Part shown: one piece after another, positions 1 through 45,000 of the stretch
How positions within the stretch are numbered: position 1 is the stretch's first letter
Layout: the number at the start of each line of letters is the position of its first letter
Assembly (NCBI RefSeq): GCF_000219625.1
Contig: NC_018207.1
Location: 1 to 64,000 of the forward strand
DNA from: Zymoseptoria tritici IPO323
Taxonomy: Eukaryota; Ascomycota; Dothideomycetes; Mycosphaerellales; Mycosphaerellaceae
Direction of reading: 5' to 3'
DNA: 64,000 nucleotides
Notes under the pieces: generated by a model
What the model saw: the letters and a program-made list of their open reading frames with translations, nothing else
What the model was told of the DNA's origin: nothing
The model's database searches: none
Translations under genes and position numbers: made by a program

Positions 1-136
1 CCCTAACCCTAACCCTAACCCTAACCCTAACCCTAACCCTAACCCTAACCCTAACCCTAACCCTAACCCTAACCCTAACCCTAACCCTAACCCTAACCCC
101 ACCCTAACCCTAACCCTAACCCTCACCCTAACCCTC
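1..136. repeat. Telomere, CCCTAA repeats (chromosome left end)
   Basis: Perfect CCCTAA units run from base 1 to about 100 and then degenerate into CCCTCA and CCCCA variants up to about 136. The C-rich strand reads 5' to 3', so base 1 is at or near the physical left end of a chromosome. The unit is the TTAGGG type usual in filamentous ascomycetes. Confidence 0.98.
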
Positions 137-894
137 ACCGCCGCGCGCTTACGCGCGCGCCTAACCCTACAACTTTAACCCTATCTAAACTCTACTACCG
201 TCTCTACTCGACCTCCCCTACTTATATGTCTTAACCCTAACCTATACTTTTACCTATTTAACGGGTTACGCTTCGCGTCGATTTTATTAAACCTATTAAC
301 CCTAACGCTTTTACCTATTTAACGGGTTACGCTTTATGGCGACTTAATTAAACCTATTAACCGGGTTAGCGCTACGCGGATTCGGGTTCTACCCTATCTA
401 CTTCTATATCTTTATTCTATTTACTAATATTCTTATTATATAGATTACGCTTTATATTTACCTTAGTTAATTAATTTATCTCTATATCGTAGCTCTAAGT
501 AGTCTAAGTAGAATAAGAGATAGTATATACCCTATATTTTATCTATACTCTAGAACTACTAGCTAAAGTATACTATATATATAAGCTATACTTAAAGTAT
601 TAATCTATTAGGTTCTCGGCTTTTATATTATATATCTATTATATATAATATATAATACTCTATACTTCTAGGCGCCTATACTATATACTATATATTTAGA
701 GACCTCTATAGTATATAGTTCTAAGCTGCTATAGTATATATCTAGATACTAGTATACTCTAAACCGCTATACTCTATATTCTATACTCTATACCCTAGAA
801 CCGCTATAATATATACTTAGAAACCGCTATATCTTATACTTTAAAACCGCTATACTATATATCTAGAAATAGAGTAGACTATATAAACCTTTAG
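137..894. other. Subtelomeric TA-rich spacer with short repeats
   Basis: There is no coding signal here. CA and TG are almost absent while TA is in large excess, the end state of RIP. A unit of about 60 bp containing a shared ACGGGTTACGCTT core is tandemly duplicated at about 247-367. Between about 720 and 870 short units built around ACCGCTATA and TCTAGAA recur every 25-35 bp. Confidence 0.75.
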
Positions 895-1005
895 TTTTCT
901 TCTTACTCTTCTCTTCCTTTTCTTAACTCTCTTATATTATCTACTCTACTACTACCTTTTATACTCTTTGCTACTACTACCTCTTATACTCTTTACTACT
1001 ACTAG
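895..1005 (+). promoter_or_regulatory. Pyrimidine-rich leader upstream of the recombinase gene
   Basis: A CT-rich tract lies directly before the ATG at 1006 and includes an imperfect duplication of a CTACTACTACC...TATACTCTTT unit. Pyrimidine tracts just upstream of the start are common in fungal core promoters. This is inferred from position and composition only. Confidence 0.45.
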
Positions 1006-4000
1006 ATGTCTTCTACTACTAGTAGTATTTATTATAAGAATATAGATAGAATTAGACCTCTTACTATAGAAGAATTTAATAAACTACTAGAGGATAATAG
1101 GCCTTATACTAAGGAGACCTTTAAAGCTATTACTCCTAGTAGTATAGAGTCCTTAGAAGGGTTACCGCTAGACTATAATCCGGATCTAAAGCTATTAATT
1201 TGCTCGGAATGTTCTACTACTCTTACTAAGGATATTAATAATATAGTAAAACATTTAAAGGTAAGTCTAGTCTAGAGAGTATATTAGAAACCCTACTAAC
1301 TATATATAATAGGGACATTCGAATAAGAATAATAAGGAGACTAGAGAATACTATAACTCTACCTCTATTCTAGATTTAATTAAGAGCTTTATAGAGGGTA
1401 AAGATATACTTATTAAAGAGGAAAAGAATTCTAAGGAGTTACTTAGTAATATAAGCTATAATACCTACTACTATCCTAACTTAGAGCTAAATCTAGACGG
1501 GTATAAATGCCGATTTTGTCTCTATCTTAATCCGAGCGCTAAAGAAGTACGAAGACATTTAAATAAAAAACATAACTATAAAAGTACGACTACTCTTAAC
1601 CCTAACGTTCTAAGAGAGGTTCCTATTATATCTATTAAAGGATTTAAGGATAATCTAAAGTATAGGTTTATACCTAAGTTTATTAAAGAGAATAGTAATA
1701 CTTATACTAATAGTATATCTAATACGGATCTAAATCTAGATACGTATAAAGACGTCTTTAGTAGTATAAAGAAGGATACGCTTTCTAACGCGCCTAAGGA
1801 ATCTAATATAAATAGAGAGGAGGAGTTTTTTAATAGAAGTACCTACTACTTTCGATATTTAGAAGATAAGGACCTAGAACTACTTCTAAATACGATAGAT
1901 CCTAATATCTTTCTTAAGAATAGGCTACTAGCCTTTATCTATTATACGACTATAGATCTAGGCTTAGAGACCTTTAGTTCTATCGAAGATCTCTCTATAA
2001 ATACTAGAAAGGCTCTTAATAACTATAATCCGGGAAATAATAATCTAGAAGTAAAGGCCTTTAAAGAGCTAGATATAGCTACGAGAAAGTCTTACCTTAA
2101 GCCTATCGCTACCTTCTTCGTCTATCTCTATACTATATATCGAGAGCCGGAAGCCTACTACTCTAAGCCTACTATAGAGTCTTCTCTTAGTAGTCTTTTA
2201 TTTAAAGTATCTACTATTAGTACGTATTTAATAGAGGATAGTAATAGAGCTAAAGAAGATCTAAAGAGAGTTTTATTAGAGACTCTAGATTATCTTCTTA
2301 CTCTAGGGATAGATATAGTATTCTACGAGAATAGTAGTTTTAATAATCCTTTAATAACCTATTTAATTATAGCGAGCTTAGATCCGGCTAAGATCCTAGC
2401 TCTAGAAGATAAGAATACTATTATATTTAGAAAGACGACTTCGGTACAATCTCTATTATCTAAGTTAATCTACTCTAGCCGCCTATTTACTTTAAAGTAT
2501 TTAGTACTTCTAAGTACTACTACTACTAAAGTAGATAACGCCTTAAAGTTTATCGAGTCTAGATTAACTATAAATGCTAGTAACTACTTTACGGAGTACT
2601 ATAGCCTTCGGATTAAGCTAAAGTATTATAATTATAATAAGATTAGTAGCTATAAGCCTATAGACGATATAGATCCGGATACTTTAGCTATAGATAATAT
2701 TAAAATTAATATAAATACGCTACGGACCTTATTTATAAAATCCTTAGAAGATCTAGAGGATCTATTCTTTAAGGATATTATACTATTTAATAAGGAGGAG
2801 GAAAATATAATAGACCTAGATCTAAGTAAAGTTCTCGATCGAAAAGATAATAATACGCCTTTAGAGGATCTAACGAGCTCTAAGTACCTAGTAAAATATA
2901 AGGATATTCTTATTAAGAAGTTTATAAATAAAGACCTCTTACTAGATCCTACTCTAGGTAGTAAGGCGAATATTAAAGACGGTATTCTAAGCTACTTTAA
3001 AAAGATCTATAACTTCTTAGTATCTTTAGCGCTAAATATCTACTTACTATCGAGTAGTCCCTTAAGAGGGAAAGCGGTTATTCTACTTAAGTTTCGAAAT
3101 ACTAGTCTAGGATCCCTACGAGATATCTTCCTCGATAAGAGTAATAATTTAATAGCTTTAGATACGAGTAACCTCGATAAGAACCGGGACTCTACTACCC
3201 TAAATACTAATACTATTCGGTTTCTACCTATACGCCTAACGAGGATAATAGTCTACTATATTACTTTTATTATTCCGCTAGTAGAGTATCTACGGATTAA
3301 CTATCTAGACGTTACGGCCTTAGAGACGAAGCTTTTCTTTAAGCTTTATAATAAGAATATTACGAGCCTTACTCTAAGTAAAGCTCTAAAGGATATAACT
3401 AAAAAGTACTTTAATAAAGGAATTGGTATTAAAGAGTATAGACATTTAATAACCTATATAATTAAAGAGCGTATACTAGTAGAGAGGCCGGAGCTATTAA
3501 GCCCTCGATCGAATAAAACGGCTATAAAATTAAGTAATCGAGAACAATCTAATATCGAGGATATACTAGCGGGACATTCTACTAAAGTAGCGAATCTAAA
3601 CTACGCTAGAGAAACAAACTACTTTAGTAATAAGACTAGAGATACTACGAACCGAAGCCTAGCTTTCTCTAAGCTATACTTTAACTACTTTAATTTACTA
3701 GAGGATAAATCGATAAGAGAGATCTTAAAAGATAAAGTAGAGTATATCTCTCGAGTAAAAAGCTATAAGACGACTAGTAATAAAGAGGATAGTACTACCT
3801 CTTCTTCGATATCTTCTATCGACTCTAGTAGTCTTAACCTAAGTAATAATTCGGATAATAAAACGCTTACTATTCCTAAGGTACTCGAGTCCTCTAAAGA
3901 TAGTCTAAGTAACCCTAGCTCGGATTCTAATAAATCTCTTACTTTTAAGAATATATTTAGTAGTCCTAAGACTCTTTTAACCGAAGAAAATACCCGGAAA

Positions 4001-4528
4001 AATCGACTTACTCCTAAAGCTCTTCGTCTACTTAATAATAAAGTCTTTAGCCCTTCTAAAGAGACTATTATCGAGGATTATATAACGACTATTAATACTA
4101 AAGTAGAAAGTAATCCGGTACTAAAGAAAGATAGTAATAAAGGAAAGGCTCCTATTATCTTAAGTAGTAATAGTAATAGTAGCTCTTATAAAAGCGCTAG
4201 TAGCGTATCCTCTAATAATATTAAACCTAAGCTAAAACCTACTAGCTCTAAACCTATAGTTAAGAAACAGTCGAGCTCTAAGGCTATAGAAGATATAGAT
4301 ATTCCTACTATTAATATCGAAAAGAACTCGAGTAGTAACTCTAAGGATAAAGAAGATAATAAAGCTATAAGCCGCTCTATATCTAAAGGATCTAAGCGCT
4401 CGTTTAGTAATAGAAGTAGTAGTAACGATAATAATAAGGGATCTTCTAATCCTCCGATAGCTAAAAAGGGTAAAGGTAGGCCTAAGAAGGTTAAGACTAA
4501 TAAGAGGGGACGGCCGAAAAAGATATAG
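1006..4528 (+). CDS. Telomere-linked tyrosine-recombinase-like protein with C2H2 fingers and AT-hooks
   Basis: Two exons, 1006-1260 and 1313-4528, joined by a 52-nt intron (GTAAGT start, CTAAC branch site, TAG end), give 1156 codons without a stop. Seen in the translation: C66-x2-C69...H83-x3-H87 (finger 1, completed only by splicing) and C151-x2-C154...H167-x4-H172 (finger 2). Next come an Arg-I-like PLRG at 667-671 (R670), K792-x-x-R795-H796, and G839-H840-S841 followed by Y849. The H-to-Y spacing of nine residues equals that of classical tyrosine recombinases. The tail is Ser/Asn/Lys-rich and ends in two AT-hook cores (KGRPKK, RGRPKK). From memory, the 620-860 region resembles the N-terminal half of fungal subtelomeric RecQ-type helicases (TLH/OrsD-type); no helicase part is present. 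Exon 2 contains no ATG, GTG, TTG or CTG because TG is nearly absent. Likely role: DNA-binding recombinase of a Crypton-like or telomere element. The open frame is certain; the function is inferred. Confidence 0.88.
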
Positions 4529-4765
4529 GATTATTAGAAAGCTAGAGGCTTAGGGTATATTTATATAGAAGATCTATATATTTCTTACTTCTTCGTTAGT
4601 AGTACTATCTTTCCTTACGCTTTCTTAGTAGTATGTCCTTATAATAAATACTAGGAACTCTATAGCTTAAGAGAATATATAATATAGATTCTTAGAACTA
4701 GAGTAATTAACCTTAAGCTAGCTATAATTTGTCTAGACTTATCCTACCTTTTTAAGGATTTAATA
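4529..4765. other. Spacer between recombinase gene and satellite
   Basis: TA-rich DNA without open frames or recognisable motifs. It probably contains the 3' untranslated region of the upstream gene. Confidence 0.5.
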
Positions 4766-6420
4766 GTACTTAGATACGCTAGAAAAATAGTAGCTAGTCC
4801 TTAGTAGATCTAATAAGCTCTAGATAATTTATTTATAACTTACCCCTCTCTAAATCTCTTAATACTTTGTTTTAAGCTCTATAGAATTTCTACGACCTAA
4901 CTACTATTTTTTATATATTATAGGCTAGCTATATAGTCGTATAAAAACCTAACTACCTATATAGTAAATCTATCTAGCTCTAAAGAATTACTTAGTACTA
5001 CCCTAGATCCGGATTCCTCTCTAATTTATTTTAGAATATATATAATTTCTAGTACCTAATTACTATTTCTATTAGGGTATAGGGTATCTATATAGCCCTA
5101 TAAAAATAATAGCTAGTCCCTAGTAAATTATAAAAGCCTTAAAGAATTTCTTTTACTTAACCTACCCTAAGACCTACTTACCGATTTATTCTAGGCGCTA
5201 TAGAGTATCTACTACCTAGCGATTATTTTTTATAGCTTTCTTAGTATCTATATAGCCTCTTAAAAATAGTAACTAGTCTATAGTAAGTCTAATAAGCTCT
5301 AGATAATTTACTTATAACTTATCTTACTAAGAGTTACTTAATATTTTTTTTTGCGCTCTATAGAAGTTCTATTCCCTAACTACTATTTTTAATAGCTTAC
5401 TTAGCATTAATATAGCCCTAGAAAAATAATAACTAGTCCTTAGTAAATCTAATAAGCTATAAAGAATTTCCTTAACTCTAGACTATATCCGAATTTCTCG
5501 CCGATTTATTTTAGGCACTATAGAGTTTCTATTACCCGGCTACTATTTTCTATAGCTTTCTTTATATCTATATAGCCCTAGAGAAATAGTAAGTAGGCCG
5601 TAGTAAACCTAATAAGCTCTAGATAATTTACTTATAACTTATCTCCCTAATAATTCTTTAACGATTTCTTTTAAGCTCTATAGAATTTCTATTACCCGGC
5701 TATTATTTTCTATAGCTTTCTTAGTATCTATATAGCCTTAAACAAATAGTAGCTAGTCTATAGTTAATCTAATAAGCTCTAGATAATTTAACTATAACTT
5801 ATCTTACTAAGAATTCCTCGACCCTTTCTTTTAAGCTTTATAGAATTTTTATAACTAAACTGCTATTTTTTATAGCCTTCCTAGCATCTATAGAGCCCTA
5901 GAAAAATAATAACTAGTCCGTAGTAAATCTAATAGGCTCTAGATAATTTCCTTATAACTTATCTCCCTAAGAAGTACTCGATAATTTATTTTACGCTCGA
6001 TAGAATTTCTATACCCTAACTACTATTTTTTTTAGCTTCCTTAGTATCTATATAGCCCTAGAAAAATAATAGCTAGTCCTTAGTAAATCTAATAAGCTCT
6101 AGAGAATTTGCTTAAATCTAGGTCCTATCTAAAATTTTTACTAATTTCTTATAGGCTTTTTAGAATTCCTACTACCTAACTATTATTTTTTATAGCTTCC
6201 TTACTATTAGTATAATCTTAGAAAAATAGTAGCTAGTCCTTAGTAAATCTCCTAAGCTCTAAAGAAATCTATTAATACTAATCTCTTCTAATATTACCGA
6301 TCGATTTTTTCTAGGCTCTATAGAATTTCTATTACCTATCTACTCTTTTTCTAACCCTTCTTAGTATCTATATAGCCTAGGAAAAATAGTCGCTAGTCTC
6401 TAGTAATTCTTATAGTAAAT
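4766..6420. repeat. Diverged 160-bp tandem satellite
   Basis: A diagnostic segment (TATAGCCctaGAAAAATAat followed by AGCTAGTCcTTAGTAAATCTAATAAGC-type sequence) recurs at about 4766, 4934, 5097, 5253, 5412, 5572, 5733, 5893, 6053, 6212 and 6372. The step is almost exactly 160 bp across about eleven units. Units differ by many transitions and CA/TG are depleted, so the array has been through RIP. The period is close to a nucleosome repeat. It lies directly 3' of the recombinase gene. Confidence 0.85.
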
Positions 6421-7021
6421 ATAAAAATAGTAGTAGCTTACTCTTAGGGATCTTCTAATATTTTCTTAGTATTATATAAGTAGTTTATATACTTTTAACG
6501 CCCTTTTAACTCTATATAGTATTTAAGAAGGCTACTATTTATTCTAATAAGCGTATATATTAACTATAAAGTCCTAAAAGAGGCTATTTACGTAGATATC
6601 TACTCTTAATTTTTCTAAGCTCTAATCTTTTTTTCTAGCCCTTATTCTATTTTTCTCTTCTTTCTTTAAGTATTCTAATTCTAATAAAAATACTAGCTAA
6701 GGATTCTAAATTATAGTAAGCTCTAGAAAATTATATCTAGAATACCGATTATCTTAAAATAATTTTAGCTTCCCGAAGAGAGTACTTTTTCGACGTCTCT
6801 TATTTTTTCCTTAATCTATAAGCCTTAAGGGCTTATAGAAAAATCCCCGAAGCCCTCTCGAACGACTCGTCGCTTCGCGAAAAATCGCCTTATAGCTCCG
6901 CTCGGGTCGACTTCGTCGACCCGAGCTACGCTATAAGTAGGACTATTGTCGATTTCTCGGTCGGGCAAACCGACTAGTGTCGATGTGCTAGGACTGTTGT
7001 CGATTTTCATCGGCTATACGT
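6421..7021. other. RIP-affected spacer ending in a strong palindrome
   Basis: No gene is visible. At about 6904-6930 a near-perfect hairpin has CGGGTCGAC and GTCGACCCG arms around TTC, flanked by further pairing (GCTC/GAGC). CA and TG return after about 6950, marking the border of the fully mutated zone. Confidence 0.6.
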
Positions 7022-7210
7022 CGTCAGAGCAGTTGAGGCACACATCAAAGCAGGCGCCGCTTCCTACAGCCCTTCAGTCCCTAGGAAGTCTCGAGGAGCT
7101 ACTGAAGTCCTAAGCTCAGAAGTCCGCCGCCAAGACCGCCAGAGCAGTTGAGGCACACATCAAAGCAGGCGCCGCTTCCTACAGCCCTTCAGTCCCTAGG
7201 AAATCTCGGG
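7022..7210. repeat. 118-bp direct duplication
   Basis: The segment from AGAGCAGTTGAGGCACAC through CCTTCAGTCCCTAGGAA occurs at about 7026 and again at about 7141. A shorter relative (AAGCAGGCGCCGCTT...CTAGGAAGTCTCGAGGAGCTACT) lies at about 8522-8583, so this sequence was once dispersed or part of a longer repeat. Confidence 0.8.
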
Positions 7211-7212
7211 GA

Positions 7213-8310
7213 GCCACTAAAGGCTGCGTCGACCGGTCGACCGGTCGACCGCTGCGACCGACGTATGAAACGAACAAGATTATTACCCTATTTAACAACA
7301 AGCCTTTACGACTTTTCTTCTTACCTACAGCACCGAGACCACGATCACCTTACTTCGCTGCACGATCTCCCGGAGATCTCGGAGAGCTGCTGAAGTCTCA
7401 AGCACAAACTTCCGAGGCTGCGGAGACCGGTCGACCGGTCGGCCGCTGCGACCGACGTATGAAACGAACAAGATTATTACCCTATTTAACAACAAGCCTT
7501 TACGACTTTTCTTCTTACCTACAGCACCGAGACCACGATCACCTTACTTCGCTGCACGATCTCCCGGAGATCTCGGAGAGCTGCTGAAGTCTCAAGCACA
7601 AACTTCCGAGGCTGCGGAGACCGGTCGACTGGTCGACCGCTGCGACCGACGCATGAAACGAACAAGATTATTACCCTATTTAACAACAAGCCTTTACGAC
7701 TTTTCTTCTTACCTACAGCACCGAGACCACGATCACCTTACTTCGCTGCACGATCTCCCGGAGATCTCGGAGAGCTGCTGAAGTCTCAAGCACAAACTTC
7801 CGAGGCTGCGGGGACCGGTCGACCGGTCGACCGCTGCTACCGACGTATGAAATGAACAAGATTATTACCCTATTTAACAACAAGCAAGCCTTTACGACTT
7901 TTCTTCTTACCTACAGCACCGAGACCACGATCACCTTACTTCGCTGCACGATCTCCCGGAGATCTCGGAGAGCTGCTAAAGTCTTAAGCACAAACTTCCG
8001 AGGCTGCGGAGACTAGTCGACTGGTCGACCGCTGCGACCGACGCATGAAACGAACAAGATTATTACCCTATTTAACAACAAGCCTTTACGACTTTTCTTC
8101 TTACCTACAGCACCGAGACCACGATCACCTTACTTCGCTGCACGATCTCCCGGAGATCTCGGAGAGCTGCTAAAGTCTTAAGCACAAACTTCCGAGGCTG
8201 CGGAGACCGGTCGACCGGTCGACCGCTGCGACCGACGTATGAAATGAACAAGATTATTACCCTATTTAACAACAAGCCTTTACGACTTTTCTTCTTACCT
8301 ACAGCACACT
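7213..8310. repeat. 194-bp tandem repeat, six copies
   Basis: The anchor GCTGCGACCGACGTATGAAA recurs at 7251, 7445, 7639, 7833 (GCTGCTACCG), 8031 and 8225. The period is 194 bp; one copy is 198 bp because of a 4-bp CAAG insertion. Each unit begins with a GACCGGTCGACCGGTC cluster, with variants ACTGGTC and ACTAGTC that are C/T and G/A transitions. Short open frames inside it are incidental. Confidence 0.92.
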
Positions 8311-8864
8311 GCCGAAGCTTAGAAGCAGCTATCGTTCTAATTGGAAGACACTAATCAGCGGTCTTACCTCACTCTTGCTTTGCACAAACGAGTCTCGGAT
8401 ATAGAGCAGGGACGGCCTTATGCTAGTAACAACGACATCATCGAGCAACCCGCTAGTCGCTTAATCGCACCACAGATCGTGTCGCCCGCAATCGAGGATT
8501 ACTATCCTATAAGCCCCGGCCAAAAGCAGGCGCCGCTTTCTACAGCCGTTCAACCCCTAGGAAGTCTCGAGGAGCTACTAATAGCCACCTCGAGAACGAA
8601 CGGCTAACAGTATTGCATCAGACTCTGATTATAAAGACGACGCCGGCGGCGATGCACCTAATACTCGAAGTCCAATTGATCTCACCGAGAAAGACAAAAA
8701 CGATCTAAAAAACACTATCCTTAAGTTGAGACGGACGATGTAATAGAAACGGCCTAGAAGCGGAGGGAGCGAGACCGGTCGACCGGTGGCCGGTCTTGCC
8801 GCTCCCTATTACTTGTATCTTATTAACCCTTTACCTGCTACTACGTACAAGAGAATCCGCAGCT
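8311..8864. other. Spacer with a short open frame and repeat relics
   Basis: A short frame at 8341-8607 starts with TTG and shows no recognisable domain. Part of it (about 8522-8583) is the same sequence as the 118-bp repeat at 7.0-7.2 kb. A GACCGGTCGACCGGTGGCCGGTC block sits at about 8773. I see no real gene. Confidence 0.5.
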
Positions 8865-9800
8865 TGCGCCCTGTGTAGACTTTCTCTAGGCTAAAGCGAT
8901 GCGTCGCGGCAAGGTGCATGCTCGTTGCATGGTGTGTAACGAGCTAATACAGCCATTCCGGGCTTTAACTAGACTATCTTCGAGGTCAGGACAACTAAGA
9001 GATAGAGGGAGACAGACCGGTCGACCGGCGGCCGGTCCTGCCGGCTCCTCACTGCTTGTTCCTTACCTTTGCTTTATCTTCCCTTGCTCTTACATCTACT
9101 GCAAGCACTGTGTGGACTTTCTCTAGGCTAAAGCGATGCGTCGCGGCAAGGTGCATGCTCGTTGTATGGTGTGTGACGAGCTGATGCAGCCATTCCGGGC
9201 TTCAACTGGACTATCTTCGAGGTCAGGACAACTAAGAGATAGAGGGAAACAGACCGGTCGACCGGCGGCCGGTCCTGCCGGCTCCTTACTGCTTGTTCCT
9301 TACCTTTGCTTTATCTTCCCTTGCTCTTACATCTACTGCAAGCACTATGTGGACTTTCTCCAGGCTAAAGCGATGCGTCGCGGCAAGGTGTATGCTCGTT
9401 GCATAGTATGTAACGAGCTAATGCAGCCATTCCGGGCTTTAACTAGACTATCTTCGAGGTCAGGATAACTAAGAGATAGAGGGAAACAGACCGGTCGACC
9501 GGCGGCCGGTCCTACCGGCTCCTTACTGCTTGTTCCTTACCTTTGCTTTATCTTCCCTTGCTCTTACATCTACTGCAAGCACTGTGTGGACTTTCTCTAG
9601 GCTAAAGCGATACGTCGCGGCAAGGTGCATGCTCGTTGCATAGTATGTAACGAGCTGATGCAGCTATTCCGGGCTTTAACTGGACTATCTTCGAGGTCAG
9701 GACAACTAAGAGATAGAGGGAAACAGACCGGTCGACCGGCGGCCGGTCCTGCCGGCTCCTCGCTGCTTGTTCCTTACCTTTGCTTTATCTTCCCTTCTTC
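8865..9800 (+). repeat. 237-bp tandem repeat, four copies, coding-derived
   Basis: The anchor GCGATGCGTCGCGGCAAGGT recurs with the triplet after GCG at 8899, 9136, 9373 and 9610, a 237-bp step. Each unit encodes the same peptide (MRRGKVHARC..CNEL..FRALT..SSRSGQ). Units are separated by CTCTAGGCTAAAG in three junctions but CTCCAGGCTAAAG in one (about 9358), so an ancestral CAG became TAG by C-to-T. This points to a once-continuous coding repeat inactivated by RIP. Every unit also carries ACCGGTCGACCGGCGGCCGGTCC. Confidence 0.88.
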
Positions 9801-23130: not shown

Positions 23131-23961
23131 AAGTAGGCGTCCGATCGGTAGGACGTTAAAAGGCTACGCTACGACGTAGGAGACGTAGGCGACTAGCGAG
23201 GCCCGGACTAGCTCCGCACCGGACGATTAACTCTATCCGGAAGGCCTAGCGGTAGATGTAAGGCGTATACCCTAGATCTACGGCTACTTCCTCTTAAAGC
23301 CGGGGAGCGGGAGGAAGAAAACTAGTACCTCTATAGAGTAGTAGGAGGCTTAGAGGAATACGAAGGCGACGGCGTAGTAGGGGAGAGGAGTAGACGACGA
23401 CGATCGCTAGAGGAGGAATTCTAGCTAAAGGGAAGACGGCTCTCCCTAAACCGTTTAGGAAGTACTTATAGACTAGTATATAAGCGGCTCGATTAGAATC
23501 GAATGTCTCCAATAGTAGATATACTAGACAGAGGGAGGATAGAGCTCTACCGGACGGTCTTAAAGTGGGATATTCCCCCTTAACAAGACGGGGTTATAGT
23601 TTCGGGCGGATAAGGAGACGTATACCTCGTCCGTTACCTAGGAGGTTTAGAAACCTAAGGTACGATAGATAGTAAGCGATTACCGGAGCGATATTTTACG
23701 TTAGGATGCGGATTAGCCTATCGGTAGTCTCTCTTTTTAGCGGTTTAGTTAACTCGGGAGATAGTTAAAAGGACACCGTAAAACGTAGTTAGGCTAGGAG
23801 TAGCTACGGTGCCGTATATCGCGAGGCGCTTTACGTAGGAGCGTAGGTCTGTTTCCTCCCCTCTAAAGACGGCTAAAAGAGCCGGTAGTAAGGGCTTAGA
23901 TGGGGCTTTAGTTTAGATTAGGTGCAAAGGTAGACTAGCCTATATAAACAAGTACAATAAA
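23131..23961. other. RIP-degraded remnant of unknown type
   Basis: Depleted in CA/TG with frequent stops in all frames. Fragments of conserved-looking peptide exist but I could not assign them to a reverse transcriptase, transposase or helicase. It is bounded on the right by telomere repeats. Confidence 0.5.
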
Positions 23962-23979
23962 CCCCTAACCCTAACCCTA
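23962..23979. repeat. Interstitial telomere stub (CCCTAA)3
   Basis: Three CCCTAA units (CCCCTAACCCTAACCCTA) stand 24 kb from the end in the same orientation as the left telomere. They abut the truncated recombinase copy without spacer. This is the arrangement of a former chromosome end. Confidence 0.88.
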
Positions 23980-25458
23980 GGGACTTTAAGAGATATTTTT
24001 TTAGATAGAAGTAATAATTTAATAAGTCTTAATACTAGTAACTTAGATAAAAATAGAGATTCTACTACGTTAGATACTAGTACTATAAGATTTCTACCTA
24101 TTAGACTTACTCGTATAATAGTCTATTATATTACTCTAGTAATACCGCTAATAGAGTACTTAAGAATAAATTATCTTAAAATAGAAGTAATCGAGACTCG
24201 GCTATTCTTTAAGCTTTATAATAAAAATATCTCTAGTACTACTTTAAGTAAAGCTTTAAAGGAGATAACTAAAGAATACTTTACTAAAGGAATTAGTATT
24301 AAAGACTATAGACATTTAATAACCTATATAATTAAAGAGCGTATACTTATAAATAAGCCCGAACTTTTAAGTCCTAGATCTAATAAGAGAACGGTTAATT
24401 CCTTAGCTAATAAACAAGATAATATAGAAGATATACTAGCGGGACATTCTACTAAAATAGCTAATCTTAACTACGCTAGAGAGTCTAATTACTTTAATAA
24501 TAAAACAAGAGATACTACGAATAGAAGCCTAGAATTTTCGAAGCTATTCTTTAATTACTTTAATCTTTTAGAAGATAAAACAATAAAGTCTATTATAGAA
24601 GATAAGAAAGAGTATATTTCTAATATTAAAAGCTATAAGAATAAATTAGAAGTTATAAGTAATAGCTCGCTAAATACTATATCTACTATCGATTCGAGTA
24701 GTATAGATATTAGTAATAATTCTAATAAAGAGACTCTTACTATAACTAATATTTTAGAGTCTAATAAAGATACTAAGAGTACTAAAAGTACTAGCTCTAA
24801 TAATTCTTTTAATTTAGAGAATCTATTTAGTATTAATAATCGAGATATAACTAAGGATAATACGAAAATAAATACTTTAACTTCTAAAAGTCTTAATATA
24901 TTAAATAATAATATTTCTAGTCCTTCGAAAGATACTTTAATTAAAGACTATATAGATAATATTAATAGCGGAATAGATATAGTAGAAGAAGAACCTTTAA
25001 ACTATAAAGGAAAAGGAAAAGAACCTATTTATCTAAGTAGTAATTCTAGTACTAGTTCTTATAAATCCTCTATACTAAACCTTTCTTTTAAAGATTTAGA
25101 AGATAATATAAATACTTTAGATATTAGATCTAATAGAGCTATACCTAGTAGTTCAAAAGCTTTTATACCTAATTATATAAATAAGGAGAATAATATAGCT
25201 CTTATACCTAATTATATTAATAAGGAAGATAAGACTTTAGTTACTACTAATTATAAAAACTTAGAAATTAATAAACCTTTAAGTAAAAGATCTTATACTA
25301 ATAGAGATAGTTATAGTAGTAATAAAACAAATACTAATAATATAGAAGATACTATCGAAAATAACGAAGAAAGTATAATAGAAACTAAAAATAAAGGAGG
25401 GCGACCTAAGAAGATTAAAGGCGGTATTAAAGGAGGACGGCCTAGAAAGGCTAAATAA
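23980..25458 (+). pseudogene. 5'-truncated second copy of the recombinase gene
   Basis: An open frame of 491 codons from 23983 to the TAA at 25456-25458 aligns with residues 686 to the end of the gene at 1006-4528; roughly four of five residues match in the recombinase core. It keeps R-H (D-Y-R-H near 24310), G-H-S (24442) and the nucleophile-position Tyr (24472), the Ser/Asn-rich tail and two AT-hook-like GGRPKK/GGRPRK motifs. It lacks both zinc fingers and Arg I and has no start codon; it begins at telomere repeats. It cannot make the full protein. No stop has accumulated in CA/TG-poor DNA, so truncation is recent or selection acted until recently. Confidence 0.9.
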
Positions 25459-25543
25459 GTATTAGAATTAGTTTCTTTATTTACTTATTTATTAATTTAA
25501 TTAATCTATCTTTCTATTTCTTTTTCTTAGTATTATAAATATT

Positions 25544-26560
25544 CGAGGTTTTCTCTTAAGCTAGGAGGTTTTCCTCGACTAGCTATAGGTTTTCTATATA
25601 TATTTAGGTATAGAAGAAGCTAGGAAAACCCTTAGCTAAGCTCTAAAAACTCCGTAGCTCTTAAGAAAACCTCTAAGTCTTTATTTTACTAGTAAATTTC
25701 TTACTATTATAGATACTCGAGGTTTTCTCTTTAGCTAGGAGGTTTTCCTCGACTAGCTATAAGTTTTCTATAGATATTTAGATATAGTAAAAGCTAGGAA
25801 AACCTCTAGCTAAGCTATTAAAACTTTATAGCTTTTAAGAAAACCTCTAACTCTTAATTATACTAGTAAAATTATAGTATTTATAAATATTTAAGGTTTT
25901 CTAGTAGGCTAAGAGGTTTTCCTTTACTAGCTATAAGTTTTCTAGAGATATTTAGATATAGTAGAAGCTAGGAAAACCTCTAGCTAAGCTCTAAAAACTC
26001 TATAGCTCTCTCGAAAAACCTTTTTTTCTTATTTCCTTTAGTAAAATCCTAGTATATATAGATACTTAAGGTTTTCTCTTAAGCTAGGAGGTTTTCCTTA
26101 ACTAGCTATAAGTTTTCCCTATACTATTAGATATAGAGGAAGCTAAGAAAACCTCTAGCTAAGCCTTTAAAACTTCGTAGCTCTTTTAAAAACCTCGAGT
26201 TCTTATTTTTACTAGTAAATTCCTAGTATTTATTACTATTCGAGGTTTTCTCTTAAGCTAGGAGGTTTTCCTTTACTAGCTATAAGTTTTCCCTATACTA
26301 TTAGATATAGAGGAAGCTAAGAAAACCTCTAGCTAAGCCTTTAAAACTTCGTAGCTCTTTTAAAAACCTCGAGTTCTTATTTTTACTAGTAAATTCCTAG
26401 TATTTATTACTATTCGAGGTTTTCTCTTAAGCTACGAGGTTTTCCTCGACTAGCTATAGGTTTTCTATATATATTTAAATATAGAGGAAGCTTAGAAAAC
26501 CTCTAGCTAAGCTCTAAAAACTCCGTAGCCCTCTCGAAAACTAAATCTCGATCCGCGCTC
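25544..26560. repeat. 174-bp tandem satellite, six units
   Basis: The anchor CGAGGTTTTCTCTTAAGCTA (or TAAGG variant) recurs at 25544, 25718, 25892, 26067, 26241 and 26415, a step of 174-175 bp. Each unit contains an inverted pair (GCTAGGAGGTTTTCC ... GCTAGGAAAACCTC), so it can fold. It lies directly 3' of the truncated recombinase copy, matching the position of the 160-bp satellite after the full copy. Confidence 0.92.
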
Positions 26561-26880
26561 GGTCCGACTAAGTAATTCCTACTGTAAGGGTCTGAACCGA
26601 AGTTGCTCACAAAGGGCCAGATCCGAATGTATAAAATTCTAAAGCTACCGAAAAGAAGATCTATCTAGAACAACGGAACGTCGAGTATAAGCTGTGTGTG
26701 CGCGTAGCGTCGCTTGGCGTATACGTAGCCTTCCAGTCGGCCGAAAGGAAGCTTGTTCCCGATTCGGCCTAGTGGATTTCTGAACCGGCGTTCGTCCGTT
26801 GGGCGTTGGCCTAGGCATCGGCACAGCCGATGCAGCCTCAGGCACCAGCCTCTGACACCTACGAACGATATAAGTAGGCT
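26561..26880. other. Island of unmutated sequence
   Basis: CA and TG are present at ordinary levels here, unlike both flanks. The short minus frame at 26645-26845 has no family resemblance. It may be unique DNA that escaped RIP. Confidence 0.5.
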
Positions 26881-37684: not shown

Positions 37685-40600
37685 CGCTCCTCGCAGCGGA
37701 AGTCAGCTATGGACTTCGAAAGAAACAGCATCATCACGACGGAAACCAGTCTTATGCGGGAGACAACACTTAAGGGCCATCGACCTAGGCCGTGCTCTTA
37801 TCCGAGGGATAGGGATTAAGCCCGGAAAGTATACATATCCGAGCTTTTTGTAGCGTGCTTAAGAGCGAGAGACTAGTAACGACGTTACTAGCAAAATAGT
37901 AGAGGGATTGGTCCGAAGGTCTTGTCGATACAGCTTTTGTTAGAAGCAAAGTCGCCGAGATAATGTCGAGCAGCCAGAAAATTCGCAATGAGCACCGCGA
38001 TTAAACCGTCTCTATAGCTGCGTTCGACCTTCGCCGGATCTAACAAAGGGATAAAGCCTATTTTGCCGAGCGGTGCTTAAAGAGTTGGCCCGAAGGGCTA
38101 AGACGCATTCGGCATAGCACCGGCTCCGGCCGAAAGTTTAGGGTCGATGTAACGATGCTTGGCGTTTAACTTCATTCACTTTACTATTGTTCTAATTGTA
38201 GTAGCCTTTCTTTTCTATAGTAAGCGCGCTAGTTATAAAAGAAAAGGGAGCACAATATAGAGAAAGTTAATAATAGGAAGAAACGTAAACGAGAAATCTA
38301 AACTTCTCCTCTAGCTTGTAATGTTTTTAATCCTATAAGTAACTACTACTACTACCTCTAACTCCGCCGCCGCTACTATAGGTAGCCCTCCCTCCCGCTT
38401 TTCGCTATCGCGAGCCGTAAGTAATTGTAGTAGAGTAGTAGTATAGGTAGCGCTAACTATAGTAGAATACCTTCTATAAGAGCGACGCCGTTTAGCGTTA
38501 CCGTCGCTGCGAGCGTAAGTAATTTAATCTAGCGACCCTTATTATAGTATACCGAGACTAACCTTTATATAGAAGAGAGGATAAGACGCGGCGCTACCGT
38601 ATTTACCGCTCTATAAGTTATTAGTCCTTTGTTTTCTAAACCGCTACTATAGCTTATAAAAGAAACAAAACTAATATCTAATAGCCGCGCCCGTCGTACC
38701 GCGCTACGGTACTACCTCCCCCCCCCTCCTCCGGCTCCCGCTCCTCTAATCGTCGCTCCGGTCCTAACTACTATCGCTGCCCCGGCCCTAGCTCTACTAC
38801 CTCCGGCTCCGCTAGCGTATACCGCCCTAGCGCCCGCTCCTCTAGCTCCGGTCGAGTCTTCTTCCGCCCCTACTCCGGCTCCGCTAGCTCCGGTCGAGTA
38901 CGGCGACGACGGGCCTACCGGGTAAGAACATCCTTCTCTTTAACTCTTTACTAGTCTACGAGACTTTAAGAGCTTTATAAGCTATAAGACTTTAAGAGTA
39001 GATATATTATAAACGGCTATAGATTAGAGAACCGTAACTAACTAACTACGTAGCCTTAACGACGACGACGACGACGACGACGGCATGTTCGTAGCGCCCG
39101 GGTAAGCATTTCCTTTATAAAGCGGTATACGCTACTTAGGAAATAAATGCTAACCTATATATAGCCCCTCTCCTTCGCCCGCGCCCGCGACTCCCTCCGG
39201 CGCTAGTACTAGTACTCCCGTTACTCCTTGGTCGCGTAGCCGTCCGCTCGGAAGCGGTACCTTCGCGTACCGTCGCCCGTAGTAGGCGGACACTTAGGTA
39301 TATATTCCTTTCCCTTATAAAGTAGTAAATGCTACTTAGAAAAGAAACTAAGCTAACTCGCGCGTATAGTAGTCGGTAACGCTAGCCCGCTAGGCTTAGG
39401 CGACCGACGCGGTGCGCCGCCGTACTACCTATATTAGGCTCCGCTAGGAAACTAGAGTCTAGCGGGTGCCGGCGTACGCGCTATACGAGAGGGCCGGCGA
39501 GGCCGACCGTTACTTTATACTAGCGACCGGGTAAGTAATTTATTTATCTATTACTATATAAAAGAACTATTACTAACTAGCGCGCGTATAGTAGAACCTA
39601 CGGCAATTACCTATAGAAGAACTTACCTATAGGCGGATACTAGTAGAAGCATTAGCGGCATCGGCGCCCGATCCTACTAATTAGCGGGCGGGTGACCGTA
39701 TAAGACCGCGTTAATTATTAACGACAGAAACGCTTCCCTTCGGGGTATAAGACGTACGAATAAATACTAGTTTCGCTCTCGTATACGTATTTCTAGTCTT
39801 AGTCTTAGTCTTAGTCTTAGTCTTAGTCTTAGTCTCGATATTAGCTACATTAGTCTCCGTCTATTTCTTTTATAAAGTATAAGCGTCGCTTAAGAAAAGA
39901 AAGTAGTAGAGATTAGAAGGTCCCTCGAGGAGGACGGAACGCGTTGTTGTTACCTAAAGGCTAACTATACTAAACATCCGAGCGGTAGGTATCCGCGATA
40001 GTAACTCGCTACGCTAATCTCCTATTCTAGTCGTACGCTTGCATCTCGGCGACAATCCTACTACCGGCCGTAAGCCGCTCTAAGTCGAAGGTATCCTTAA
40101 ATAGTAGATTATCTAGCTTCTTATTACGCGAGATAGCGACGTAGAATAACGGTACGTTCTTACGACTATTAGAGATATTAAGGACAGCCTTCGATAGTAT
40201 TATACCCTACGCCTTATAAACGGTAATAGCGTACGCGAGTCGAACGGGGAACTAGGTACGAGTACGAGTTTCGCCTTTATAGAAAAAGGAGCGCTAGAAT
40301 TATTATTAGTAAGGGCGGATTTCTTTTATAAGGTAAGGGCGTAGGCTTAGAAAAGAAATACGAACCTAGCTTCGGAAGATAGGAATTACGGCATACCGAG
40401 ATCTACGTAAGGAATACTCCTTAATATATAGACCGTCGTAGGTCGCTCGCGGCATAGTAACGAGAAAGTAATATAGCTAATCCTATAGCTCGGACGACAT
40501 TAGCGTATTGTTTGTTTGTTTGTTTGTTCCATTTACGTCCTTTCGGAGTCCAAGACTATGTAGGACGGCCTTGCCCTAAGGGCAAGGCAGTAGATCTATT

Positions 40601-41803
40601 TACAATCAAATTCTTCGGTATTCTTTAACCTTAGGGGAAACCCCGTGCCTAAGGCAATGCCAAAGGACTTTAAACAAATGCGAGACAAAGGAAATCAAAC
40701 GAGTGTTACTACGGCCCAAGGCTGTAGAATTTTCGCGCCAAGCTTTTTGCAGAATTTTCAGCGGATCCTTCCGCTTCGTACGTACGCACGCTGCGAATTC
40801 GAAAGAGATACAGCGTAAGGCGATGCAGCGCAAAGGCGCAAAAAGCAGCTGTCTAACTCGCTGTCTTCTCTTGTCCTTAATATGCCTTTGTGGAACTGTA
40901 TGCCGCTTCTAAACGTATATAGCTACGTAGGTTAATCGTAGAGTTGTAGATTCCACCGTTGTTCTAACTCTTTAAAGTGACGGCCGAACAGACTGCACCT
41001 TTACGCGGTAGCCGTCGTAAGTACCTTCCTCGGAAGGGAAACTAAGACAGTCTAGAAGAAACCTCCTCGAAAACCTCTCGAATCCGCCCGAAATCCTTCT
41101 CGAAATCCGCCTCTCGAATCCGCCCGAAATCCTTCTCGAAATCCGCCTCGAAATATAAGCACAGAACAATAGTACGATTCGAACGAATAGCCCTCTACGC
41201 TACGAACAAGAAGAAGAAGAAGAAGAAAAAGAAGTAGTCCACTCTGCCCTATACGCGCACCTCCTCGAAATCCGAACCGAAGCACTTTAAAGAGCTGGAA
41301 CAGTCGGTGGAATCCACAACTCTACGATTAACCTGCGTAGCTATATACGTTTGGAAGCGGCATATAGTTCTACAAAGGCGTATTAAGGACAAGAGAAGGC
41401 AGCGAGTTGGACAGCTGCTTTTGTACGGCATTTTGCACGGCATTCCTCTCTCTCTTTTTCGAATTCGTAGCGTACGTGCGAAGCGGAAGGATCCGCTAAA
41501 AATTCTACAAAAAGCTTAGCGCGAAAATTCTGCAGCCCTAGCTGCAGACAACGATACGCGAAAATTCTACAGCCCCGGCTGTACGACACTCGTTGGATTT
41601 CCTTTGTTTTGCGCTGCTTTTGAAGTCCTTCGGTAGATTCTGCTTTACAGATTCTACCTTAGGCACGGGGTTTTCCCCTAAGGTCAAAGAATACTAAAAG
41701 AATTTGATTGTAAATAGATCTACTGCCTTGCGCGCAAGGCCGTCCTACATAGTCTTGGACTCCGAAAGGACGTAAATGGAACAAACAAACAAACAAACAA
41801 CAA
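37357..41803 (+). repeat. Segmental duplication, copy B (partner 18675-23114)
   Basis: This is the source copy: it begins inside the intact RTA1-like gene and ends at the outer edge of the right foldback arm. Beyond 41803 the Helitron continues here, while copy A goes into unrelated sequence. The downstream block at 37685-38180 is single-sequence DNA shared by both copies, with no gene. Confidence 0.95.
40509..41803. mobile_element. Foldback (long-TIR) element, copy B
   Basis: Same element as 21827-23114, inserted between the helicase C-terminus and the rest of the Helitron. Outer ends are TTTGTTTG / CAAACAAA. No transposase frame is present; frames inside (for example 41052-41285) are incidental. 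Confidence 0.9.
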
Positions 41804-42010
41804 CTCTTTAAAGTGCACTTTTCCGTAGAGGACCCGAATCTCTAGAGGGAAAGAGGTGCGATTTCGGTTCGGATTTCGAGGAGGTACGCGTATAGGGCAG
41901 AGTGGACTGCTTCTTTCTTCTTCTTGTTCGTAGCGTAGAGAGCTATTCGTTCGAATCGTGCTATTGTTCTGTTATAGCTTATGTTTCGAGGGGAGGTATA
42001 CCTCCAGGTC
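41804..42010. mobile_element. Truncated second foldback fragment
   Basis: AACTCTTTAAAGTGC followed by CGGTTCGGATTTCGAGGAGGT and GGGCAGAGTGGACTGCTTC matches the central part of the foldback element in inverted orientation. A partial copy therefore sits directly against copy B. Confidence 0.7.
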
Positions 42011-45000
42011 GTGTTGTTTTTGTAAGGGAAGAGGGATCGACAGCCTCTCCAATCCTCCGGAGGAAACTTAGCTCTACGACGACGATGTCGTCGTAGGTTC
42101 GTAGCCGGCACCACGTACAGGTGTTCCTCGTCGCCGGCCTCGACATTAGCGTAGAGCTAGCCTTCTATACTATATTATATAGGCGATACTCGGTACCGTT
42201 AACAATGCTACGCTCCGTCTATAGGTTCTAAAGGATTATAAGCTTACATCTAATACTAATATTAACGCGGTTGTCGAGAAACCTAGCCTTAGTAGTAGGA
42301 ACGTTAGTAGCGATAGGGTAACTATTAGTCGCTATATACGAGAAGACTAGCTAGCTACTATTACGCATACGAGAAAGGTTGTGTTCGTTAGCATCTACGT
42401 TAGTACCGTACAACCGGATAGTATCCTCGAACTAGCGGTATACCGGATACTAAAAATTAAAGTTCGACTACCGAGATTTTTAGTACGCTAAGTCGATAGG
42501 ATTTTCTTTTATAAGGTAGCTATTACGCTTTAGAAAGGAAATGCGGGGATACGAACCTAGCATCGAGTAGACAATGTCTTCTAGTAGTTAGAGGTAACCG
42601 TCGCGTTACGAAGTCCTTCTAACGCGGCCGTAAACTCCGTACCGCCGTCGCTCTAACGCTACTACACCGTTAACTCGATCGTCTTATCGAACGCTCTATA
42701 CTTCTTATAACTAAGTACATCTTCTAGTAATAGACGGCTAGCACCGGCTAGTAGATTCGTAACGTTAAAGAATAGTGCCTTATCGTTAACCGGTAGAAGC
42801 TACTAGAAGTTACCGAAAAGGAGGACGTTTATACTACCGAAGAACTAGTTATTAAGGAACGCTTACTTTAACCGGAGATCGATGTAGTAGAGCGTTAATA
42901 GGCTAACTATACTCTTCTCGTCGATAATAAGGTACTTAGTATCCTTTAGTCCGCTCTATAGCGTTGTAGCTACCGCCGAGGACAGCTTCTTAAATAGGTA
43001 GTTAATTAGTAGTTTAAATAGCGAATGTAGCGTACTACCGGCGATGTTAAAGGACGTAGAACTAGTAGGCGCCGCTCGGAGGATAGTAGTCGTATAGGGC
43101 GATAGGACCTATAGAAAGTTAGACTCCTTAGTCCGGTTTTAAAAGAGGGCTATTTAAGTATTTTTTTTATAAGCTAGCGCTACCGCCTTAGAAAAGAAAT
43201 GCTTACCTACAAATAGGCTAAGACTACCTTAATTAAGAAACTCTTACTAGTACTAGCGCGACCGTCGACATTTAAGAGGAGCTACTTCGGCGTACTACTA
43301 CGGAGACTAGACTTATAGTAGTTTATAACCTCGTCGTAGACTAAGCGCTGCTCTATAGACAGTATGTCTACTACCTCTAGCGATTAGAACCGTACCTCCG
43401 ACTACTTTAGATATATAGCCTTCGCGCGCTCCTACTAACTAGATCGATAGATATCTAGCTCTTACCTAGGAAGCAACTCCTTATCCTACTGCCGCTAGTA
43501 CGTACTAACATAGAAGTCCTAATTATATAGCTAGTTATTAGTCCGCTTACTAAGGTTGTTCGGATCCTTACGCCGCGCTATAGGATTACGACGAACGGTC
43601 TATCCGGCTAGTAGCTCGGTACTACTAGCGCCCTGTTCCTATCGTTCCTTACCGGGCTCGAACTTATCTTCCTCGTCTAGATTATCGAGGATCTTATCTA
43701 TATAGTCGAAGGCGTAGTAATAGTGCTCGTTGTCGTCCTTAGCCTACTACTACCGCTAGTAGGAGCGAAAGGCATTAGCCTAGGTAGTATAGCCGTCGTA
43801 TAGGAGCACTAGATACTCGCGGAATAGATAGTAAAGGACGACTTTTAGGCGGCAGAAGTCCTCGTAATCTAGGCCGGTTAGTATAGCGGAATATCTACTA
43901 AGGAAGTTAGTCCTTTCTTTACTAAAGTAGTAGTTGTAGTATAGAAAAGAAATACCTAGGCATATAGTAGAGAATGCGACTAGGAGCATTCGGCCGGGGT
44001 TTAAAGTCCTTACCCTTACGGTAGTCGAATGTCGTAAGGAAGGTAAATAGACTAGTATCCTCGTACGCCTCGTCCCTAGCCTTATACTTCTAAAGGGGCG
44101 TCCTACCTTACTTAACATCTTTACTACTATTATCTAGCTCTACTATCGTACCGAGCTAATTCTCGGGTCGATAGTTAAAGCTAATAGCCTTACGGCTACC
44201 TATCGATAGTAGCAAACTAAAGAGGATGTAGGAAACCTCCTACGCCGACTAGTCTCGTTCCCTAATTAATCGATTTATCGTCCTAACTACGAGTAATAGT
44301 TCGGGCTTAGCATAGGTTAGCATTTCTTTTATAAGGTGTACTTTAGGCTTTATAAAAGAAAGAAGTAGAAGTACCTACCCGATTCTCGTTTAAATACGGT
44401 GCGAGGCTTTTAGCAATCTACTAGTATGTTAACGTAGTAGGCTCGTTCTTAGTCGCGTACTTCCTAACGTAGTTAATTACCGCCTTCGTGGACGTATAGG
44501 GTAAGATGTCGCTGTTCGCTCGCTACCTTAGCGCGACTATTAGGTAGTATACATTTATTATAGAGTCGTTCGAGGCTACATTAAATAGCGGGTAGTAAGG
44601 ATTGCGGGCGCGGTTAGTAGTAGTAGGGCCGGTAGCTCGAGGGAAGTAGAATCGACACTTAGTCGGTGCATTAGGTGTAGCTCCGCGCACTCTACGTTAG
44701 TAGTAGCCCTATAAGATAGATATTAGACTCCTTAGTCCGGTTCTTCGTATTAGGCCTATTTGTTTTCTATACCGCGCAGCCGCTATAGAAAAGAAAGAAA
44801 GCGCTTACCTTGCTTCCGTCGTAGGAGTACTACTATACGCGGTTTATAACATTAGACAGATCCTTAAGGGTGTTAGTTAGTTCTTCCGTAGTAGTATTAT
44901 AAATACCTCGAGTACCGACACCGGCACGGGCTCTACCTAGCTAAGGGTTAATAGCAACGATATACTTGTCCTAGAATACGGTAAAGGTAGCGCGCTCTAC

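Follow-up and report, generated by a model that had tools for sequence, protein, structure and literature searches.

A gene kept open under repeat-induced point mutation and its putative chromosome-capping element in Zymoseptoria tritici

Introduction

How can a long gene stay open directly beneath a telomere, in DNA saturated with repeat-induced point mutation (RIP), and to what kind of element does it belong? These questions are raised by the first 64,000 nucleotides of contig NC_018207.1 of Zymoseptoria tritici IPO323 (RefSeq assembly GCF_000219625.1; this whole stretch is referred to as the window), where a two-exon gene for a protein of 1156 residues lies next to the telomere. The gene is intact, under purifying selection and nearly emptied of CA/TG dinucleotides, and it is carried by a repeated element with the telomere on one side and a base-exact palindromic terminus on the other. 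We argue that this element has been mobile, and that its protein may work like a recombinase.

The gene itself is not new, a point missed in the first-pass annotation of the window. It was described by Dhillon et al. 2014 (PMC4522978) under the name of a subtelomeric 'RecQ helicase' family of Z. tritici (M. graminicola), with an open reading frame (ORF) of approximately 3.2 kb on chromosome 12, a 3,480-bp coding sequence (CDS) of low GC content and 13 copies, seven complete and six truncated, spread over nine chromosomes. The genome is given there as 39.7 Mb in 21 chromosomes, and Y' elements are brought up in connection with this telomere-associated family. The main text of that paper nowhere uses the string 'palindrom' (0 occurrences), and its accessible parts contain no recombinase motif, no RIP footprint of the gene and no element termini. 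New here are the element, its exact inner terminus, its mobility as argued below, the RIP-purged coding sequence and the absence of a helicase. A limited literature search, which is no proof of novelty, returned in the accessible parts of the sources no description of the palindromic terminus, of base-exact junctions, of a recombinase motif in telomere-linked helicase (TLH)-type proteins or of RIP-marked residues.

An intact gene under purifying selection

The spliced exons (1006-1260 and 1313-4528) encode 1156 residues, in agreement with the first-pass annotation, whose 85-codon first exon, 52-nt intron and open frame of 1071 codons were reproduced to the coordinate. The intron borders and the frame are preserved in 7/7 full-length copies of the gene, and the intron shows 0-2 differences between the six distinct copies. 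Codon 1 is the only in-frame ATG of the CDS, and GTG, TTG and CTG do not occur in frame at all, so that exon 2 is indeed devoid of all four codons, as had been noticed. In a set of 100 sequences of 20 kb drawn from a second-order Markov model of the flank at 4529-7000, the longest stop-free run was 125 codons and the mean of the 100 maxima over the three forward frames was 75 codons; the flank itself holds 82-90 stops per 824 codons in every forward frame. The 1071-codon frame is therefore not a product of chance. The next longest ORF of the element is an antisense frame of 114 codons, which leaves the 1156-residue gene as its sole long frame.

By searching the genome (21 contigs with 42 ends, 39,686,251 bases) we found seven full-length open copies, all near chromosome ends: C12L, C3L, C17L, C17R, C20L, C20R and C4L, where a label gives the contig number and its left or right end. 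The gene had been called telomere-associated, with its presence at other chromosome ends named as a check, and these copies bear out both. Two 5'-truncated copies (C5L and C13R) and shorter fragments were found besides. The gene sequences of C17L and C17R are identical, and in C20L, C20R and C4L the protein has an alternative tail after approximately residue 1013 in which the GRPKK motifs are still present. The element at C18L reads N and was left out of this count: 4530 N stand where the gene of this full-size element should lie (L059), in agreement with the 4.5 kb of unclonable DNA that Dhillon et al. 2014 (PMC4522978) describe as a gap on chromosome 18.

Over the 1010 codons shared by the six distinct copies, the pooled ratio of nonsynonymous to synonymous polymorphism (pN/pS) is 0.13. 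Polymorphism occurs at 167 sites, of which 165 have two alleles. These biallelic sites divide into 110 synonymous and 55 nonsynonymous ones, whereas random placement of the same changes within matching trinucleotide contexts gives 54 and 107; the sites are not independent events if the copies exchange sequence. It is practically certain that the gene is intact and under selection.

RIP footprint of the coding sequence

The CDS retains 17 CA/TG dinucleotides (10 CA, 7 TG) where several hundred are expected, or about 1/20 of expectation. Over the region 1006-4528, intron included, the observed-to-expected ratios are 0.05 for CA, 0.04 for TG and 1.56 for TA, which is the CA/TG depletion combined with TA excess that marks a RIP-affected repeat. 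The loss is near total because the copies are repeated and thus exposed to RIP. The composition of the protein is correspondingly extreme: Trp is missing altogether, Met occurs once, and there are only 3 Gln, 4 Cys and 6 His. Every one of the ten Cys and His residues is either a ligand of the two C2H2 fingers (C66, C69, H83, H87; C151, C154, H167, H172) or one of the motif residues H796 and H840. The paired fingers, R670, K792, R795, H796, H840, Y849 and the two AT-hook motifs listed by the first-pass annotation were all recovered in the translation.

Fourteen of the 17 retained sites fall in the start codon, the eight finger ligands, the two motif His codons and the three Gln codons, and RIP at them is predicted to destroy the start (1 site), to replace a finger ligand or motif His by Tyr (10 sites) or to create a stop (3 sites). 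At the remaining three sites RIP would give A507T, G790S and T853I. Since the copies at C4L and C5L, as well as an older relative within the window, have Ser at position 790 (C13R has Gly), this site is not essential. Fourteen sites are common to 7/7 full-length copies, namely the start, the eight ligands, H796, H840, Q464, Q830 and the A507 site; the set includes all four ligands of finger 2 and leaves out the Q1071 site. Some gene copies are richer in CA/TG, with up to 25, which may be explained by the non-functional dim2 copies of IPO323 described by Möller et al.

This pattern suggests that a repeated gene can remain functional under RIP once its mutable sites are exhausted, and the earlier claim that the gene is kept despite RIP agrees with the purged CA/TG, the intact frame and the purifying selection. 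The footprint can be read as a residue-level list of the positions that the protein cannot easily lose; if so, RIP amounts to a saturation mutagenesis performed by nature, in which the irreplaceable residues stand out. Two loci considered as RIP-killed control copies, L026 and L027, were rejected, being interrupted by stops and not poor in CA/TG; L027, at C11R, was used instead as a less RIPped relative.

Termini, targets and mobility of the element

The outer border of the element consists of telomere, CCCTCA variant repeats and a GC hairpin, CCGCGCGCTTACGCGCGCG, which has 11 matches in the genome, 11/11 of them <=8 kb from a contig end and in a single orientation; it is present at both ends that carry a TLH gene (see below). 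The inner side closes with a palindrome followed by GTAG. A 41-bp pattern of this terminus, searched with up to 3 mismatches, so that more divergent termini would escape, gave 18 matches, 16 of which are exact over 41 bp. All 18 lie within 22.9 kb of a contig end (the one at C13L at 22.8 kb) and in the same orientation, and they occupy 17 of the 42 contig ends. GTAG is followed by 18 different flanks in the 18 insertions, the first flanking base being G in 15 and T in 3. The distance from the outer hairpin to the inner end, taken from coordinates for C3L, C17L, C18L, C20L and C4L, is 6.3-7.3 kb, with 5.4 kb at C4L.

Among fetched loci, element-free copies of the target were found for 13 insertions. 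In 12 of the 13, AG stands directly before the junction and equals the terminal AG of the element itself. At eight ends (C12L, C2R, C6L, C7R, C16L, C17R, C18R, C20R) the sequence distal to the terminus could be followed as far as the contig end or stopped no more than 111 bases short of it. At all eight, this sequence lacks the 300 bases found ahead of the junction in the element-free copies, with the exception of telomere-repeat matches in one C7R comparison; the distal stretches of C17R and C20R are wholly covered by other element copies. Because these pre-junction bases are missing, the element replaces the chromosome end and does not interrupt it.

Copies of the element are closely alike at unlike sites. 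The elements of C17L and C17R show 0 mismatches over the 5958 + 126 bp (6084 bp) compared, with different targets and flanks, and the last 330 bp are identical in five of the 11 termini compared (C12L, C2R, C6L, C7R, C16L), at five different targets. At four of these ends, C2R, C6L, C7R and C16L (L049, L051, L052, L054), the telomere is followed directly by only about 360-375 bp of the inner element end; the telomere/element junction of C7R is also that of C16L, as if a mini-element had moved in trans. One terminus, at C18R, sits within the gene of an older copy. At C4L (L043, C4:12949-12989) the palindrome core TTC is inverted to GAA with the arms intact, a single event.

The element with its specific inner terminus has thus very likely been mobile. 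Several points weigh against the mechanism proposed below: the target copy for C2R has CG in place of AG, the target match for C13L is only 74-77% identical, the element-free targets are paralogous copies and not alleles, and identity among copies could stem from gene conversion.

Telomere-linked helicase relatives

Two further chromosome ends, C13L and C8R, are 99.6% identical over 6.5 kb and carry an open gene for a related protein (1658 residues at C13L), which is likewise depleted of CA/TG (101 against approximately 563 expected). The C13L protein is 35-46% identical to the 1156-residue protein over the fingers and 28% over the middle, and continues into DEAD and Helicase_C domains (Pfam E-values 1.5e-8 and 1.5e-10; RecQ TIGR00614, 4.5e-8); it is a true telomere-linked helicase. 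The relation to TLH proteins suspected at first pass is thereby supported. The same searches detected no helicase domain in the 1156-residue protein (Pfam with both exons, NCBIfam with exon 2), which is a shortened relative of the TLH protein with AT-hooks in place of the helicase. OrsD matches of the 1156-residue protein remain below cut-off (Pfam E-values 0.0048 for exon 1 and 0.14 for exon 2), as does that of the TLH relative (0.00059). A third relative, at C11R, has the same middle, stop codons and an ordinary CA/TG content. The RecQ label suits the C8/C13 protein and not the 1156-residue protein, for which the published annotation is hereby corrected.

Recombinase-like region of the protein

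The active site of tyrosine recombinases is formed by positions in the order R...K...[HK]xxR...H/W...Y. This order is present in the 1156-residue protein as R670, K708, K792xxR795, H840 and Y849, and the nine-residue spacing from H840 to Y849 is the same as in a Xer-type protein (L061, LGHx8Y). The strict motif [HK]xxRH...[GA]Hx8Y occurs in 0/20000 shuffles and in 0/18 other ORFs of the window; it was chosen after being seen, and a looser form occurs in 75/20000 shuffles. R670, K708 and R795 are invariant in three divergent families (the 1156-residue gene, TLH and C11R), H796 and Y849 are each preserved in two of the three, and H840 is present in the family of the 1156-residue gene alone, the C11R alignment being gapped in its last part, where H840 and Y849 lie.

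Against a tyrosine recombinase stand, first, the profile searches. Pfam, NCBIfam, PHROGs and PDB sequence searches gave no significant tyrosine-recombinase match, nor did hidden Markov model (HMM) and hhalign comparisons with 87 Xer/integrase sequences. The HMM of the Xer panel scored the protein at -1.8 bits, below many shuffles (best 0.3), and the older relative of the window, 59% identical, at 1.0. The paired box II score from a position-specific scoring matrix (PSSM) was equalled in 1744/2000 shuffles, with its best position off the motif; the box I PSSM was marginal (157/3000 shuffles for the 1156-residue protein, 405/3000 for TLH and 1084/2000 for the C11R fragment). Second, K792 is replaced by A in TLH and by L in C11R, H840 by R in both, and the Y849 column holds F in TLH, with a Y one residue off. 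Third, the junction of the element lies at the edge of the palindrome, while the core sites of classical recombinases are joined at their centre.

The best surviving alternative is that the motif is fortuitous and that the protein is a non-catalytic C2H2/AT-hook DNA-binding protein acting in partnership with a separate enzyme, such as the TLH protein. The profile tests without a match, structure tests that gave nothing usable, and the loss of K792 and H840 in the relatives all speak for it. However, H796 and H840 are the sole His residues outside the fingers and have been retained against RIP in 7/7 full-length copies, and the persistence of R670, K708 and R795 across three families and the shuffling result also speak against a chance motif. 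We hold a fortuitous motif to be possible and rather unlikely, and a recombinase-type enzyme to be fairly probable, judging from the motif and its conservation, on which the tyrosine-recombinase reading rests. Since no profile recognised the family and both AlphaFold models are of very low confidence, we prefer to say that the protein works like a recombinase and not that it is one. What stands of the tyrosine recombinase proposed at first pass is thus the motif, with R670, K708 and R795 shared by two divergent relatives; the HMM comparison that had been suggested for it found no significant match, and its Crypton-like affinity finds no support, GCR1_C and DUF3435 not being among the Pfam matches with E-values up to 1. 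HUH/Helitron chemistry was also considered and rejected, because all six His are finger ligands or H796 and H840 and none is left over for an HUH nuclease.

Proposed mechanism and alternative explanations

In the mechanism that we propose, the gene would be the sole long frame of a DNA-only mobile element living on chromosome ends, with the telomere on its outer side and the fixed palindromic terminus on its inner side. The protein would use its two C2H2 fingers and its AT-hooks to bind the ends of the element, and its recombinase-like middle (R670-K708-R795-H840-Y849) would cut the hairpin-forming inner terminus beside GTAG. The cut terminus would be joined, presumably by the same protein, to an AG|G site in the vicinity of a different chromosome end. 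In this one joining event the element would supplant the distal sequence and cap the chromosome with its own telomere. The repeated copies would then be RIPped until CA/TG are nearly gone and mainly protein-critical sites survive. For this scheme as a whole, in which a DNA-only mobile element caps chromosomes and encodes a recombinase-like protein, we consider the case evenly balanced.

Host repair could produce a similar picture. Extrusion of the hairpin would break or prime the DNA, break-induced replication with AG microhomology would copy the element and the telomere onto broken ends, and the protein would be selected for a role in telomere structure or chromatin. Replication of this kind, running to the telomere, predicts the position of 18/18 termini near ends, and the absence of the distal target half at 8/8 ends tested, an AG shared by element and target that is merely 2 bp long, and the commonness of telomere-healed truncated copies speak for it as well. 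Random invasion, however, would not yield an inner end that is GTAG to the base in 18/18 cases, and the gene has kept its ligand and motif residues under heavy mutation; we regard this account as unlikely.

Still less probable is a domesticated telomere gene, derived from TLH, which the host would retain for the upkeep of its telomeres or for heterochromatin and which would have spread between ends by ordinary ectopic recombination. The strong purifying selection would suit such a gene, a Y'-like role for the family was discussed by Dhillon et al. 2014 (PMC4522978), and the S. pombe tlh RNA has been linked to heterochromatin. The inner terminus is nonetheless present at only 17/42 contig ends, five termini come only with fragments of approximately 0.25-0.4 kb, and an exact inner boundary with different flanks is unlike ectopic exchange. 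The published reading as a subtelomeric RecQ helicase gene, based on similarity to S. japonicus RecQ (Dhillon et al. 2014, PMC4522978) and in keeping with the RecQ helicase of the related C13L/C8R protein, has next to no chance, as the searches that detect the helicase in the relative find none here.

Comparison with known systems

Like the element, fungal TLH genes (U. maydis UTASa/UTASb, S. pombe tlh, F. oxysporum TLHcr) are telomere-adjacent; for UTASb, the accessible parts of the sources mention a conserved core and an OrsD domain, singly or together. The TLH relative in Z. tritici shares the front part of the protein and approximately the outer 200 bp of the element. In contrast to TLH, the 1156-residue protein has an AT-hook tail in place of the helicase and both motif His, and its element a palindromic inner end.

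MoTeR, FoTeR and the Z. tritici family 4 retroelement are likewise located at chromosome ends with telomere repeats at a terminus, family 4 always in one orientation. The present element differs from all three in being DNA-only, with a palindromic inner terminus at AG|G and no reverse transcriptase, a family that was not found in the exons (Pfam, E-values up to 1). Cryptons, marked by a GCR1_C-type DNA-binding domain, and Starship captains, marked by DUF3435, are also DNA-only and have the recombinase-type motif order. Both differ from the element, which matches neither domain, uses the telomere as one end and has a palindromic inner end; Crypton element ends are unlike these. Helitrons have a hairpin a few bases inside one terminus, as here, but they end in CTRR, target A|T and encode a Rep/Pif1 protein, whereas the present element ends in GTAG, targets AG|G or AG|T and encodes a protein with no Pif1 helicase and no spare His for HUH.

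We put forward only tentatively a new class of DNA-only terminal transposons (hairpin terminus joined to AG|G, with replacement of the end), of whose recombinase lineage TLH would be the helicase-fused branch. TLH genes stand at chromosome ends in several fungi, and an exact terminus, a target and a candidate motif turn the question that these genes pose into a cut-and-join assay; the element may help to explain this long-unexplained telomere-linked gene family.

Features of the window and a former chromosome end

Table 1. Features of the element, of the window and of the TLH-bearing ends (window positions unless another end is named)
Feature	Coordinates	Strand	Basis
Telomere repeats (CCCTAA)n, with CCCTCA variants beside the element	1..139		read directly; CCCTCA then outer hairpin at 11 ends
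Outer hairpin CCGCGCGCTTACGCGCGCG, telomere/element border, also at TLH-bearing ends	141..159		genome-wide matches
Exon 1, 85 codons, ATG at 1006; C66, C69, H83 (first three ligands of finger 1)	1006..1260	+	sequence
Intron, 52 nt, GTAAGT...CTAAC...TAG	1261..1312	+	GT/AG borders and frame
Exon 2, 1071 codons and stop TAG	1313..4528	+	sequence
Second C2H2 finger pattern, C151, C154, H167, H172	1508..1573	+	sequence; sub-threshold C2H2 matches
Recombinase-like region, residues 640-870: R670, K708, K792xxR795-H796, GH840, Y849	2975..3667	+	motif and conservation
Two AT-hook-like GRPKK motifs, C-terminus	4466..4525	+	sequence
Tandem repeats of ~160 bp, 10.2 copies	4779..6414		repeat analysis
Inner 47-bp palindrome, arms of 7 and 12 bp, 3-bp core TTC	6890..6936		hairpin fold (script)
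Element terminus GTAG; unrelated flank from 6941	6937..6940		18 different flanks after GTAG
Older relative, 59% identity, truncated on 5' side, beside CCCTAACCCTAACCC	23968..25416	+	alignment
Tandem repeats of 174 bp behind older relative	25524..26529		repeat analysis
TLH gene, 1658 residues, points toward telomere	C13L (L048) 901-5991	-	open, RIP-depleted
TLH gene, open frame of 1644 codons, points toward telomere	C8R (L034) 4232-9166	+	near-identical to C13L

The older relative and the 174-bp repeats behind it repeat the gene-then-repeat layout of the element. At approximately 23,955-23,980 this relative breaks off against CCCTAACCCTAACCC and a further sequence, which is found in the same place ahead of telomere repeats at C4L and C11R; this further sequence probably represents the 3' terminus of the telomeric retroelement described by Dhillon 2014. 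From this arrangement the position may be read as a former chromosome end, to which everything distal, the present element included, would have been added later. An inner palindrome with perfect arms of >7 bp was not found at the older copy (window 26,351-26,700).

Just inside the inner end of the element, a 194-bp tandem repeat of 5.6 copies with 96% matches occupies positions 7221-8307 of the window. The stretch 39001-47000 is moderately RIP-like, with CA/TG at approximately 0.3 of expectation and TA at 1.67. At the C5L end (L047, approximately 130-420) the telomere is followed directly by what appears by eye to be a fragment of a reverse transcriptase of the non-long-terminal-repeat (non-LTR) type.

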